Origin: an uncultured Prevotellaceae bacterium
GTDB taxonomy: Bacteria; Bacteroidota; Bacteroidia; Bacteroidales; Bacteroidaceae
Direction of reading: 5' to 3'
Assembly: GCA_902761605.1 (NCBI GenBank)
Contig: CACWLC010000018.1
Location: 16,041 to 80,040 of the forward strand
DNA: 64,000 nucleotides
Part shown: piece by piece, positions 14,118 through 19,857 of the stretch
Layout of the letters: each line of letters begins with the position of its first letter
How positions within the stretch are numbered: position 1 is the first letter of the stretch
Notes under the pieces: generated by a model
Database searches by the model: none
What the model saw: the letters and a program-made list of their open reading frames with translations, nothing else
Told to the model about the DNA's origin: nothing
Position numbers and translations under genes: made by a program

Positions 14118-15994
14118 AGTGGTAATATGATGTTTATGTCTGTTCCCTTGCTCTCGGCTGACACGATGTCGATCCTGCCATTGTATGACTCGATGCGCTC
14201 ACGGATATTCTGCAGACCCATGCCCTCGCCCGAAACGGTTCCCCTCTGTATCCCCCTTCCGTTGTCGCTGACGGTGAGTGTCACTTCGTGTTCGTCCTGC
14301 ATCAGCTGAATACTGATGCTGCTGGCCTGGGCATGCTTTAGGGCATTGTTTACCAGTTCGTAGGCACAGCGATAGAGCACAAGTTCAACGTCTTTTTCGA
14401 GATGGATGTCTCCAACGGCTTGGAATATCGCCCCAGGCACGGATACAGCGAAGTCGTTAAGAGCAGAAGCCAGTCCGTTCTTCAGCAGTTCCTCGGGCAT
14501 CAGGTGATGGGCCGTGCGGCGCAGTTCGATAATTATATCGTCGAGCAGATCACGGGGAGAACCGTCTCCTTGATTCACTAGCTTCATCCGTAGCAGCGAC
14601 AGCATCCCTCCGAGTCCGTCGTGCAGGTCACGTGCCAGTATTCTTCGCTCCTTAGTCTCTGCCTCCAGTGCCACCTTAGCAGCCAACAGTGCTCTCTTTC
14701 GTTTGTGCATCACCACCATTAGTACGAATCCAGCCACAAGGGCAGTGATGGCGATGATGGCGGCAGCTAGGAGCCATAGGTAGAGTGAGCGTTGCTTGTC
14801 TAGTGTTACAATCTGCGCCTCCTTCTGGGCTGTCTCGTAGAGCACCTCCATCTGCGAGAGTCCGCTCTGGTAGTTCCTCGTGGAGAGCCTCTCCTGTAGC
14901 GTGCGTACCTTTTTTATAAATATGGATGCCTGCTCTTTGTTGCCCAGCTGCATGTATATCTGTGCCAGGAGCTCGTAGCAGCCGATATCACCGTAGGTTG
15001 CCTCGTCGTCGTTTTCGTGTATTGACTTCAGGGCATATTCGAGGGCCTGCTGCCATCGGTGCTCTTCTATCGCTACCATAGTGGCGGCTGCATAGATGTC
15101 GCACTGGGTCTCCATCATCATCTCGCCGTTCACCAGCGAGAGGGCTTCCGTCGCGTATGCCTTTGCCTTAGCCAAGTCAGTGTGGACGTCCATCAGGTGG
15201 AGCTTTGTCATTGAGGCAAGCACTTCAGGGTAGTCGCTCGTTTCCTCTTTGCGATGTGAGTGATAGTAGTCGTAGGCAGGGAGGATGGTCTGACGGGCCT
15301 TTTCATAGTCACCTTCTTCGATGTATATCTTCACCAGACCTTTTCTGGGCAGTGCAGCCATCAGTGAGTCGCCTGATGCTTCGCCTGTCTTGATGGCTTT
15401 CAGATACTCTGCCTCAGCCTTCTTGTTGTTGCCCATCGAGAGCCACAGTTCAGCCACGTTGTGATGCAGGATGGTCTGCGACTCCAGCCAGCCGTGCTTC
15501 TCGAAGATGGGTAGTGCCTTCTGGTAGTACTCGATGGCCAGCAGCGCCTTGTCCTGGATGTTGTAGAGATTGCCGATGGCACCGTAGAGCTGCGAAAGGT
15601 TATCATCGATGTCGCTCTCGGTGTAGCGCTTGTCGTTTTTCATCGAGTCGGTGACGGCGAGCGCCCAGAGGAAGTAGCGTTCTGCCTCTTGGTATTTCTC
15701 TTGTCCGTAACTCTGCAGCCCTAGATTGTAGAGGGCACTCTCACGCACGTTTTTGGCATCCATCTTGTAAGTCAGGGCGAGCATCTCGCGGCAGTAGCGT
15801 TCGTGCTTCTCGCCGTCCTTGCCTATATAGCCGCGTATCAGGATGCTGTAACAGCTCAAGCGCTCCTTGTCGCTGAGGTGCTTGTTGCTTAGCAATACTT
15901 GTTCAGCCGAGTCCACTTTGGCATTGCGGTGATCGATATAGCCATGAGCTGTCATACAGGCAACCAGACACGCAAAAAAGATAATTGTTCTCAT
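14114..15994 (-). CDS. HisKA_3-type sensor histidine kinase with periplasmic TPR domain, 626 aa
   Basis: Signal peptide at 1-18 (IIFFACLVACMTAHG), then about 350 residues of TPR-like helical repeats (for example ALYNLGLQSYGQEKYQEAERYF and AIEYYQKALPIFEKHG), a membrane helix near residues 405-428, and a kinase core with H458 in RDLHDGLGGMLSLLR and ATPase motifs SDNGRG and GMGLQNIRERI. The TPR part would sense a ligand or protein in the periplasm. This class is common in Bacteroidetes. The start lies 6 nt downstream of the predicted transcription start, so its mRNA is nearly leaderless. Divergent from the OmpA-like operon. Confidence 0.92.
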   Translation of the reverse strand: MRTIIFFACLVACMTAHGYIDHRNAKVDSAEQVLLSNKHLSDKERLSCYSILIRGYIGKDGEKHERYCREMLALTYKMDAKNVRESALYNLGLQSYGQEKYQEAERYFLWALAVTDSMKNDKRYTESDIDDNLSQLYGAIGNLYNIQDKALLAIEYYQKALPIFEKHGWLESQTILHHNVAELWLSMGNNKKAEAEYLKAIKTGEASGDSLMAALPRKGLVKIYIEEGDYEKARQTILPAYDYYHSHRKEETSDYPEVLASMTKLHLMDVHTDLAKAKAYATEALSLVNGEMMMETQCDIYAAATMVAIEEHRWQQALEYALKSIHENDDEATYGDIGCYELLAQIYMQLGNKEQASIFIKKVRTLQERLSTRNYQSGLSQMEVLYETAQKEAQIVTLDKQRSLYLWLLAAAIIAITALVAGFVLMVVMHKRKRALLAAKVALEAETKERRILARDLHDGLGGMLSLLRMKLVNQGDGSPRDLLDDIIIELRRTAHHLMPEELLKNGLASALNDFAVSVPGAIFQAVGDIHLEKDVELVLYRCAYELVNNALKHAQASSISIQLMQDEHEVTLTVSDNGRGIQRGTVSGEGMGLQNIRERIESYNGRIDIVSAESKGTDINIILPL

Positions 15995-16002
15995 TCTGCC
16001 TA

Positions 16003-16010
16003 CAAATTTA
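16003..16010 (-). promoter_or_regulatory. -7 promoter box of the histidine kinase operon
   Basis: Reads TAAATTTG on the - strand, 8 nt before the ATG at 15994. Downstream of the twin palindromes for this direction, so they could regulate both ways. Confidence 0.45.
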
Positions 16011-16030: not shown

Positions 16031-16086
16031 CCACCCAAATGGGTGGAAAATCTATACTCTTATGCAAAATCCACCCTTTTGGGTGG
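16031..16086. promoter_or_regulatory. twin palindromic operators CCACCC-N4-GGGTGG
   Basis: Two perfect inverted repeats: CCACCCAAATGGGTGG at 16031-16046 and CCACCCTTTTGGGTGG at 16071-16086. Their centres are exactly 40 bp apart, about four helical turns, so two dimers would bind on the same face of the DNA. The centres are about 40 and 80 bp upstream of the + start site predicted from the -7 box at 16109. The high G/C arms stand out in an AT-rich spacer. Most likely bound by the adjacent LuxR-type response regulator; this is inference. Confidence 0.75.
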
Positions 16087-16108: not shown

Positions 16109-16117
16109 TATCTTTGC
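16109..16117 (+). promoter_or_regulatory. -7 promoter box of the OmpA-like operon
   Basis: TATCTTTGC with no TTTG at -33. The downstream palindrome ends 22 bp before it, roughly in the -33 place, which suits activator-dependent transcription. Confidence 0.6.
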
Positions 16118-17467: not shown

Positions 17468-19081
17468 ATGAAGAAAGTTTTATTCTTGTTAGCTGTAGTT
17501 TTAATGTCCGATGCTACAGATGCCAATGCACAGGGATTCCTGAAGAAGCTGAAGCAGAAGGCCCAGGCCGCTGTCAGCAGCATCAAAGGTACAGATAATG
17601 AAGATAGTGAAGAGCAGCAGGATGCCGACAGCGACGAACCTGCCGATCCCTCAAACCTTACTGTGGCACAGGGCAGCGACATCGTGCCCAAGCGCAAGAC
17701 ATCAACCATCACGTGGGACGGCACCATCACTCCAAGTACGGCATCCACAGCAGCTGCCCTGATGAAGGAGCTGCCTGCTCTGCCATCAGCAGAGAAGATG
17801 GCACGCAGCTCGATGGAGGAGCGTGATGCCTATACACAGAAGATAGCCGCTGTCACCCTGCGTGCCGAGCAGTTGCAGAAAGGTACTGACGAGTGCTCCG
17901 ACGCAGAGATGGAAGCCCAGCGACAGAAATGGGAGAACAAGATACAGGATATGTTCGGTCTGACGAAAGAAGAGTTTGCCATCCTTAACGACGAGAATGC
18001 CAGCGAAGCCAAGAAGGAGCCTATCCGTCAGAAGATGCTGTCGAAGATAATGGGTACTGACGGTGCCGACATGGCTGAGATGAAACGCTTCGAGCAGATG
18101 AGCGAGAAGGAGCAGGAGGCATACATCAAGGCTCATCCTGACTTTATGCAGAGGATGATGAAGATAGGTCAGAACGCAGGCAGCTTCGCTAAGAAAGCCA
18201 ATCTGATGAATGCCGCTCTCAACGATTATACGGCTAAGTTGGGGATGCTCGCAATGGACTATTCGAAAACGATAGAACGTGAGGAGAACCATAGTTATGA
18301 AGGCATTGCCAGAAAATATAACACCAAACTTCAGAAACTGTATGCGCAAATATGCGATATTGACGATGCCTCACAGATTGACAAGCTCTATGCAGAGGCC
18401 GATGAGTTGCTCTATGAATATCGTCTGGAGGCAGCCAAAGAATATCGTGAATCGTTACGGCGCCAAATTGCCGAAGTAAAGAAGTTCGCTTCCGAGTATG
18501 CTCGTCTTTCTCAGGAGGTTATCGACAGTGGTGATCTGCCTGAGTGTGCTGTTGGACGTATGGACTTGAATGCTGTCATCATGGTTGGCAATCTGCTTGA
18601 CGAGGCTTATAAGGAACTTCCGGAACTGGAAGCTCAGCCTGTATGCATGGAGACCATTTACTCATTGCCTCAGGACTGGAGCTTTGGCTTGTGGGAGTGT
18701 CGTGGATTCATTGGGGCTGTAGATGGTTTCAAGGCTGGCGCCAACTGGCCGCTGCTTGCCGAAAAAGCTTTAGGCGATGAGAGAGAGTATGGAGTAGTAG
18801 AAAATGGCAAGTTCCGAAAGATCAGTGAATACGAACTGAAGAGCATAAACAAACAGGCCGACTTGCGTCAGAAGAATACTGACAAAACACGACAAAAACC
18901 ACCTTACGGAACCTACAAGAGCCGTAGTGGTCAGCGTATGGTAGAATACAGTAAAACAGGTGAGCTGATTGTCAACGGTATGACTTCATTTGCTCCTATC
19001 GCCTTCACAGCCAAAAGCAATTTGTTGGAGTGGATTATCCTGAGTGATAGAAATATCGTGAAGTGCACTTATAAGCTATAA
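17468..19081 (+). CDS. secreted coiled-coil protein of unknown function, 537 aa
   Basis: Signal peptide at 1-21 (KKVLFLLAVVLMSDATDANA) followed by QGFLKKLKQKAQAAVSSIKG, nearly the same N-terminal module as in the OmpA-like protein before it. Next is an acidic low-complexity segment (DNEDSEEQQDADSDE), then long alpha-helical stretches rich in Glu, Lys and Ala (residues about 100-380) that suggest coiled coils, and a C-terminal 150 residues with tryptophans (SFGLWECRGFIGAV). No catalytic motif recognised. Shared module and operon with an OmpA protein suggest an envelope role. It overlaps the next gene by one base. Confidence 0.75.
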   Translation: MKKVLFLLAVVLMSDATDANAQGFLKKLKQKAQAAVSSIKGTDNEDSEEQQDADSDEPADPSNLTVAQGSDIVPKRKTSTITWDGTITPSTASTAAALMKELPALPSAEKMARSSMEERDAYTQKIAAVTLRAEQLQKGTDECSDAEMEAQRQKWENKIQDMFGLTKEEFAILNDENASEAKKEPIRQKMLSKIMGTDGADMAEMKRFEQMSEKEQEAYIKAHPDFMQRMMKIGQNAGSFAKKANLMNAALNDYTAKLGMLAMDYSKTIEREENHSYEGIARKYNTKLQKLYAQICDIDDASQIDKLYAEADELLYEYRLEAAKEYRESLRRQIAEVKKFASEYARLSQEVIDSGDLPECAVGRMDLNAVIMVGNLLDEAYKELPELEAQPVCMETIYSLPQDWSFGLWECRGFIGAVDGFKAGANWPLLAEKALGDEREYGVVENGKFRKISEYELKSINKQADLRQKNTDKTRQKPPYGTYKSRSGQRMVEYSKTGELIVNGMTSFAPIAFTAKSNLLEWIILSDRNIVKCTYKL

Positions 19082-19857
19082 TGCCAAACGTAAAATACAT
19101 TTATATGCTGTGGCTATTGCTCGTGATGGGCAACGCCACAGCTTTTTCTGTCAATTACCCTAAGGTTTTTGGTAGTGACTGGACAGATGCAGAACGATAT
19201 GTCATTGAGCATCACGAGGCATGGAAAAAGGAATTCGATGTATTTGGGGTCGATGCACGTTTGGCTGAAGCTGTCGTGTTTCCTGAGCTTATACGTTATT
19301 CTTTCTGGAAGGATGAGATAGAGAAAGTGGCAGTCAATGGGCTATATGTCAAAAAAGGCAGGGATGGTGCTGATTTCTCTGTCGGAAGGTTCCAAATGAA
19401 ACCTTCGTTTGCAGAAAAAGTGGAACGGACCTGGAACTCTTCGCCTCTTGCACAAGAATATGGGTTTTCGTTTAATATTGCAGACAACGCTGAAGCTCGT
19501 CGCAGTCGTGTATTACGTCTAGGTACAGAGGAGGGACAGTGCCGATACCTTGCCATCTTCATCCGTCTTCAAGAGCTGCGTCTTCCACAACTGGCAAAAG
19601 TGTCTAGGAAACAAAAGGTGCGCCTTCTTGCCACAGCATATAATCGTTCGTTCTCTGCCTCATGGCTGTCTTTATGCCAGATTCAGTATGAACGCCATTT
19701 CCATACCGATGTTATCAAGACCCGAAGCACACAATTGTACTGCTATGCTGACATCGCTGAGAGTTTTTTTTTAAAATGCTCTAACCCTAACACGAATCTC
19801 GCGGAAGCCCTGTGTTTATCATACTTTCGCGAATTGTATACCCTAACAGAACCCTAA
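19081..19857 (+). CDS. secreted protein, possibly lysozyme/transglycosylase-like, 258 aa
   Basis: Hydrophobic signal at about 5-22, then a helical domain. EAVVFPELIRYSFW with a conserved-looking Glu, followed by SVGRFQMKPSFAEKVE, recalls the catalytic Glu and the GxxQ(I/M)xP segment of lytic transglycosylases, so a peptidoglycan-cleaving role is possible, but the match is partial and I am not sure. The last about 25 residues (from FFLKCSNPNTN on) are encoded by a run of eight Ts followed by CCCTAAC repeats; the original C-terminus has probably been replaced or extended. Starts on the last base of the preceding stop (TAATG). Confidence 0.65.
   Translation: MPNVKYIYMLWLLLVMGNATAFSVNYPKVFGSDWTDAERYVIEHHEAWKKEFDVFGVDARLAEAVVFPELIRYSFWKDEIEKVAVNGLYVKKGRDGADFSVGRFQMKPSFAEKVERTWNSSPLAQEYGFSFNIADNAEARRSRVLRLGTEEGQCRYLAIFIRLQELRLPQLAKVSRKQKVRLLATAYNRSFSASWLSLCQIQYERHFHTDVIKTRSTQLYCYADIAESFFLKCSNPNTNLAEALCLSYFRELYTLTEP

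Follow-up and report, generated by a model that had tools for sequence, protein, structure and literature searches.

Predicted operator palindromes of a two-component regulator at near-fixed distances from two divergent promoters in Prevotella-like bacteria

Response regulators of the NarL/FixJ family usually recognise a palindrome of ~16–20 bp per dimer. The class I and class II architectures of activator-dependent promoters are known mainly from proteobacterial sigma-70 promoters, and two-component systems are known to recombine their sensor and kinase modules. To our knowledge, little has been described about the action of activators at the promoters of Bacteroidales, which have a sigma factor and -7/-33 elements unlike those of E. 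coli. One study of these bacteria (PMC7366714) gives the sigma-ABfr promoter of Bacteroidales as TAnnTTTG at -7 and TTTG at about -33.

The locus presented here lies in the window, i.e., the whole stretch of 64,000 nucleotides that was analysed, from an uncultured Prevotellaceae bacterium. Its spacer separates a minus-strand kinase/regulator gene pair from a plus-strand OmpA-family gene and two further genes (Table 1). The initial annotation had placed the spacer between a kinase/regulator operon and an OmpA-like operon, and the Pfam domain matches agree with this assignment (for the regulator, Response_reg at 3.1e-24 and GerE at 2.5e-17). The twin CCACCC-N4-GGGTGG palindromes that it described are both exact, with AAAT and TTTT as their centres and with starts 40 bp apart. 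The regulator and kinase genes overlap by 4 bp, and the gene of the 258-aa protein probably belongs to the same operon as that of the 537-aa protein (orf537). The five named relatives of the kinase all come from MAGs, four of them called Prevotella and one Bacteroidaceae, and three of the names refer to the rumen or reticulum.

Table 1. Features of the locus, with positions in the window
Feature	Position	Strand	Remarks
Response regulator, 207 aa	13494..14117	-	Receiver and LuxR/GerE HTH; class A recognition helix TETVNWYRKRLLAK
Sensor kinase, 626 aa	14114..15994	-	TPR sensor (~1-400), transmembrane stretch, HisKA_3 and HATPase_c (Pfam)
Kinase promoter -7 box (predicted), TAAATTTG	16003..16010	-	TAnnTTTG match; distance to sites kept in relatives
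Operator palindrome 1 (predicted)	16031..16046		CCACCC-AAAT-GGGTGG = CCACCCAAATGGGTGG
Operator palindrome 2 (predicted)	16071..16086		CCACCC-TTTT-GGGTGG = CCACCCTTTTGGGTGG
OmpA-gene promoter -7 box (predicted), TATCTTTG	16109..16116	+	TAnnTTTG match; distance to sites
OmpA-family envelope protein, 428 aa	16154..17440	+	OmpA domain 326-421; divergent candidate target gene
537-aa protein (orf537)	17468..19081	+	No Pfam match at E 0.01
258-aa protein	19081..19857	+	No Pfam match at E 0.01; overlaps end of 537-aa gene

The two palindromes very likely serve as operators for the NarL/LuxR-type regulator encoded next to them, which would activate both divergent promoters. The adjoining gene encodes a receiver with a GerE HTH, and predicted dyad sites lie upstream of its own promoter as well as of the target promoter. 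The reading of the palindromes as landing sites rests on their fixed distances to both promoters and on the presence of a different palindrome beside a different regulator. In the proposed mechanism, a phosphorylated regulator dimer would occupy each 16-bp inverted repeat and would activate the regulator's own kinase/regulator operon (positive autoregulation), together with the divergent OmpA envelope operon. Each promoter would use one site ~70 bp upstream of its TAnnTTTG box, which corresponds to about -82 relative to a presumed start located ~12 bp downstream of the box's first T. In the window layout a second site ~29–30 bp upstream, at about -41, would replace the -33 box. Steps of 40–42 bp would put all sites on about the same face of the DNA, where dimers may bind cooperatively.

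Orthologous loci were collected by a kinase search in 398 same-genus genomes, 42 of which were positive at E <= 1e-60, at 45 places. These places, together with L028, L029 and one locus from another genus of the family (L142, genome G427), make up a set of 48; L025, L026 and L027 were dropped as repeats of G081, G246 and G393. After removal of two loci without the kinase start (L066, L105) and two without a readable regulator (L107, L108), 44 remained, namely 28 of class A, defined by a regulator >50% identical to that of the window, 13 of class B and 3 of class C. Two class A loci, L094 and L095, are near copies in one genome, and L095 was counted in the 28-locus geometry and left out of the kinase tree, the -33 TTG count and the module identity comparison. 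The locus of G427 matches that of the window in kinase, regulator, OmpA gene and geometry; it entered the 28-locus geometry count only and is absent from the regulator alignment, the -33 count and the identity comparison.

Absence of the motif upstream of orthologous operons had been named as a refuting result, and the motif was instead present in all 28 loci with a linked class A regulator, each kinase-upstream spacer holding at least one site with 11–12 of the 12 bases. At a threshold of at least 10/12 these loci contain 49 sites (34 with 12 matching bases, 14 with 11 and 1 with 10). Distances were measured from the site centre to the first T of TAnnTTTG, taking the box nearest to the gene, a rule that skipped a second + box closer to the site in L051 (26.5 bp) and L097 (41.5 bp); the boxes are consensus matches and the promoters are predicted. 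All 94 distances in the 28 loci fall within 28.5–30.5, 68.5–71.5 or 110.5–111.5 bp. On the kinase side they measure 28.5–29.5 or 68.5–71.5 bp, and on the + side 30.5, 69.5–70.5 or 110.5–111.5 bp. These bins are narrow and ~40 bp apart, so that the sites are in phase along the helix, both among themselves and relative to the promoters. The gap between the two -7 boxes is either 99–100 bp (15 loci) or 139–141 bp (11 loci), and never between.

Three layouts account for most of the loci. Fourteen of them, including the window, have twins 40 bp apart between -7 boxes separated by 99–100 bp; six have one site ~70 bp from both -7 boxes, which are 140–141 bp apart; and five have twins 41–42 bp apart with boxes 139–141 bp apart, their sites lying 28.5–29.5 and 69.5–71.5 bp from the kinase box and 69.5–70.5 and 110.5–111.5 bp from the other. 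The remaining loci carry twins without a + box (L052, L096) or one site 28.5 and 70.5 bp from boxes 99 bp apart (L103). Among the 26 + promoters with a box, a site stands at 69.5–70.5 bp in all 26 and at 30.5 bp in 14, which makes the distal slot near-invariant and the proximal one optional; at the 28 kinase promoters the corresponding numbers are 27 (68.5–71.5 bp) and 22 (28.5–29.5 bp). Twins are spaced by 40 bp in 14 loci, 41 bp in 3 and 42 bp in 4, and a single site is present in 7/28 (10/12 threshold), so twinning appears dispensable. The emphasis of the initial annotation on the proximal site therefore has to be shifted. Palindrome 2 does sit there in the window, centred 30.5 bp upstream of the OmpA box (68.5 bp upstream of the kinase box), but this slot is optional, and the near-constant site lies ~70 bp upstream. 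Similarly, the early view of a single + promoter gave only half of the arrangement, as the kinase gene has a promoter of its own, with palindrome 1 centred 28.5 bp upstream of the predicted -7 box; from the OmpA box this centre is 70.5 bp away, again on the upstream side.

Several further observations concern these spacers. By eye, several class A loci share a ATGGAAAGAAT-like stretch that follows the proximal site and precedes the kinase -7 box, for example in the kinase promoters of L060, L052, L090 and L099. The second kinase copy of G246 (L107), whose core is of class A type, has in its spacer only a 9/12 version of the palindrome, at 70.5 bp from either -7 box (by eye); this copy may be in decay or diverging. 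In the same genome, the other locus (L026/L090) shows a perfect twin layout, after which the + reading frame stops after 24 codons (by eye). The start codon of the window's kinase (window 15994-16010) is 16 bp from the first T of its own -7 box, an offset also seen in class A at large (17/28 loci), so the kinase mRNA is expected to be nearly leaderless. For B. thetaiotaomicron, PMC7366714 lists two sensor-kinase genes among the rare 5' UTRs of <10 nt.

The -33 element sets the class A promoters apart from those of OmpA genes encoded elsewhere. A search for OmpA orthologues in 150 genomes gave 29 matches in 28 genomes, 10 adjoining the kinase and 19 not doing so within the flanks fetched; L168, which comes without upstream DNA, was dropped, leaving 18 unlinked genes, and -7 boxes, sought 30–130 bp upstream, were present in 13 of these. 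Eleven of the 13 have TTG at N20, and nine have the full TTTG at N19-21. In class A (L095 and L142 not included), TTG at N19-21 occurs in 3/24 promoters of the + side (1/12 with a close site, 2/12 with the distal site only) and in 0/26 of the kinase side (split as 0/20 and 0/6), i.e., in 3/50 vs 11/13 for unlinked OmpA genes. The missing -33 box of the window's + promoter, suspected from the start, was borne out, since there is no TTG at N19-21 and palindrome 2 covers the usual -33 position. Such absence of the -33 TTG in class A is what would be expected of activator-dependent promoters. Taken together, the missing -33 element, the near-constant distal site and the ~40 bp slots point to activation by dimers bound on the same face of the DNA.

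Autoregulation can be negative, and the same regulator might use these operators for repression of one or both promoters, e.g., by occlusion over -33, a position that the proximal sites do overlap. We consider this unlikely. The near-constant site ~70 bp upstream of the -7 box is probably too far away to block polymerase alone, yet 6/28 loci have only a site at ~70 bp from both boxes. Moreover, a repressor does not need promoters devoid of the -33 TTG. Activation of both promoters by the adjacent regulator thus remains the preferred reading.

That the palindromes belong to this regulator is further suggested by the comparison of regulator classes. The 27 aligned class A regulators have in common the recognition helix E-T-V/I-x-W-Y-R-K-R (by eye), whereas the 13 class B regulators have F-E-T-V-H-S-Y-T-K, with H for T in L111 (by eye). 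The A site at >=11/12 was found in none of the 16 class B or C spacers. An A-like 10/12 match of L104, which lies ~340 bp from the kinase start and beyond the OmpA start, was not counted. Class B loci carry a ACCCCCATTTGGGGGATTG-like palindrome (CCCCC-N4-GGGGG-like), centred 31.5 bp from the -7 box of the + promoter; the score is 9–10/10 in 10/13 loci and 8/10 in L109, the match is weaker at the same place in L065 (by eye), and no such palindrome was found in the spacer of L111. In 11/11 loci the class B palindrome runs directly into TTG at N20, setting aside L112, a class C locus that met the loose B threshold and was not counted as having a real B site. An 8/10 B site at 31.5 bp was also seen by eye in L108, whose regulator is unreadable and whose kinase core is of class B type. 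Classes A and B thus differ in the site as well as in the recognition helix, and regulator class and operator class appear to go together. The early attribution of the palindromes to the adjacent LuxR-type regulator is upheld at the level of predicted sites (28/28 class A loci vs 0/16 of class B/C). In the kinase tree, class B forms one clade, while class A does not come out as one group, owing to L090, which sits weakly beside B. As class B is one clade, the switch of regulator and operator may have been one event, so the counts of co-segregation are not independent.

Service of the palindromes to another transcription factor, encoded elsewhere, is a distinctly less probable explanation than repression. 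Two genomes speak for it. In G368, an amidohydrolase-like gene is preceded by a -7 box with twins, 42 bp apart, at 28.5 and 70.5 bp from it (L141, 6102-6159), and a class A regulator was not found in this 63%-complete assembly (best match 27% identity). In G075, one exact copy is present, and neither kinase nor regulator was found in the assembly; no -7 box lies within 130 bp of this copy, however. More generally, the class of the motif tracks the recognition-helix class of the linked regulator. A site followed by N19-23 and TAnnTTTG occurs in 16 of the 398 genus genomes, and the kinase is present in 15 of these 16, all 15 being among the 42 kinase-positive ones; no match of the reversed control was seen.

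The formation of RNA hairpins, or of a bidirectional transcription terminator, is highly improbable. One terminator-like match does exist on the minus strand (16086-16071; shuffle mean 0.2), but the palindromes, being upstream of the two predicted -7 boxes, would not form part of either predicted mRNA. Most relatives do not keep the T-rich tail (flanks, by eye), and fixed distances to two -7 boxes would not be expected of a terminator. This candidate was rejected for its position upstream of both boxes and its poor conservation.

The rarity of the motif bears on the remaining alternative. The genome search proposed at the outset confirmed that the twins are the only exact copies of CCACCC-N4-GGGTGG in the 2.73 Mb assembly (G000); three one-mismatch copies occur elsewhere in it, and the reversed-pattern control also gives three. 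With up to two mismatches in the 64 kb window alone, at least two matches were reached in 32/100 shuffles, and the significance of the motif therefore derives from the exactness of both copies, the whole-genome rarity and the conservation. Among 150 same-genus genomes, exact copies are found in 23 (10/20 kinase-positive and 13/130 others), and those with an A/T-only centre in the same 10 kinase-positive genomes and 1/130 others (counted by eye). The reversed pattern likewise gives scattered single matches in the 150 genomes, so that motif copies far from the kinase look like background. No wider regulon was found in the window's own genome by a search for the site, 22 bp and TAnnTTTG with <=3 mismatches, which returned two places, both in this spacer (reversed control 2). 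Chance or a local repeat, although such loose pairs are not rare per 64 kb, can practically be dismissed given the whole-genome rarity of the exact pair and its conservation in 28/28 class A loci with kinase identities down to ~52%.

What the operators serve on the + side is less constant than their position. An OmpA match is present there in only 14/28 class A loci. Non-OmpA divergent genes, related to each other, were noted in L053, L057, L060, L061, L092, L094, L099, L101 and L103; their products have a signal-peptide-like start and a DxDxDG stretch, and the promoter geometry is unchanged. A fragment from L057, the only one run against Pfam, gave EF-hand below the cut-off. Additionally, no A site (>=10/12) or B site (>=9/10) was found within 330 bp upstream of the 18 unlinked OmpA genes. 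Two of the genomes concerned, G051 and G119, hold a class A locus together with an unlinked OmpA gene without the site (L145, L156). OmpA is thus not a constant target, and the motif follows the regulator locus rather than OmpA. The OmpA proteins of L093 and L104, which form a supported pair in the OmpA tree (396/428 identical residues), stand beside class A and class B regulators, respectively, each with the matching operator; operator type here goes with the linked regulator and not with the ancestry of OmpA. In the whole OmpA tree (37 rows, with a warning of long branches and with L063 as a partial row), the three states are interleaved, and the 14 changes, compared with a shuffled mean of 16.1 and reached or undercut in 24/200 shuffles, mean that the states are hardly more clustered than by chance. 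In G081, the orf537 orthologue has a third exact copy of the palindrome, 69.5 bp upstream of its -7 box, and on this predicted geometry the copy is a putative independent use of the 70-bp slot.

The kinase itself shows a break between its modules. Over sensor residues 1-400, identity is 51% between classes A and B and 53% within B, vs 22% to class C (L111 left out). From about residue 401 onwards classes A and B share much less, with identities of 28% over 401-440 and 42% over the kinase core, the latter no higher than the A–C core identity of 46%. The regulators are 36% identical between A and B, 43% between A and C and 39% between B and C, the A–A and A–B means coming from 120 sampled pairs each. 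The simplest reading of these sequence comparisons is an exchange of kinase core and regulator while the TPR sensor was conserved, accompanied by a change of operator. We lean, by a small measure, towards a joint reading in which this is a modular signalling cassette of Prevotella-like bacteria. In such a cassette, the TPR sensor would be kept while the transmembrane/kinase core, the regulator and the operator are swapped as one unit; the class A regulator would use a ladder of slots at ~30, 70 and 110 bp on two divergent promoters without a -33 element; and OmpA-type genes would have moved repeatedly among class A, class B and an unlinked state with a -33 box.

The family offers a set of natural experiments, in which one gene type is met with and without the operator, with and without the -33 box, and with two regulator/operator pairs at near-fixed spacing. 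It makes testable which positions an activator may take on a TAnnTTTG promoter and whether an operator can replace the -33 box, and it provides a ready, predicted operator code for the TPR-sensor system. A description of the motif or of this TPR-sensor system was not found, by title or start of abstract, among the literature matches listed. Regulator operators as such are known; this family stands out by the unusually regular shared operator layout and the natural operator swap.

In comparison with known systems, the regulator resembles members of the NarL/FixJ family (DevR/DosR, VraR, DesR, NarL) in its receiver and GerE/LuxR HTH, and its best-scoring solved chains are DevR 3c3w, VraR 5hev and DesR 4ldz. 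It differs in the predicted CCACCC/GGGTGG arms and in the two or three fixed slots common to two divergent Bacteroidales promoters. With class I and class II CRP-like activators, the locus shares site centres near -41 and -82 from the presumed starts, as well as the helical phase, whereas the promoter here is of the sigma-ABfr type. Both promoters of the window carry the TAnnTTTG of sigma-ABfr promoters, and most unlinked OmpA promoters with a -7 box (11/13) have the -33 TTG, but 47 of the 50 class A promoters are without TTG at N19-21. Finally, as in the domain shuffling of other two-component systems, modules appear to recombine; here, however, the sensor stays, and classes A and B differ jointly in kinase core, regulator and cis operator.
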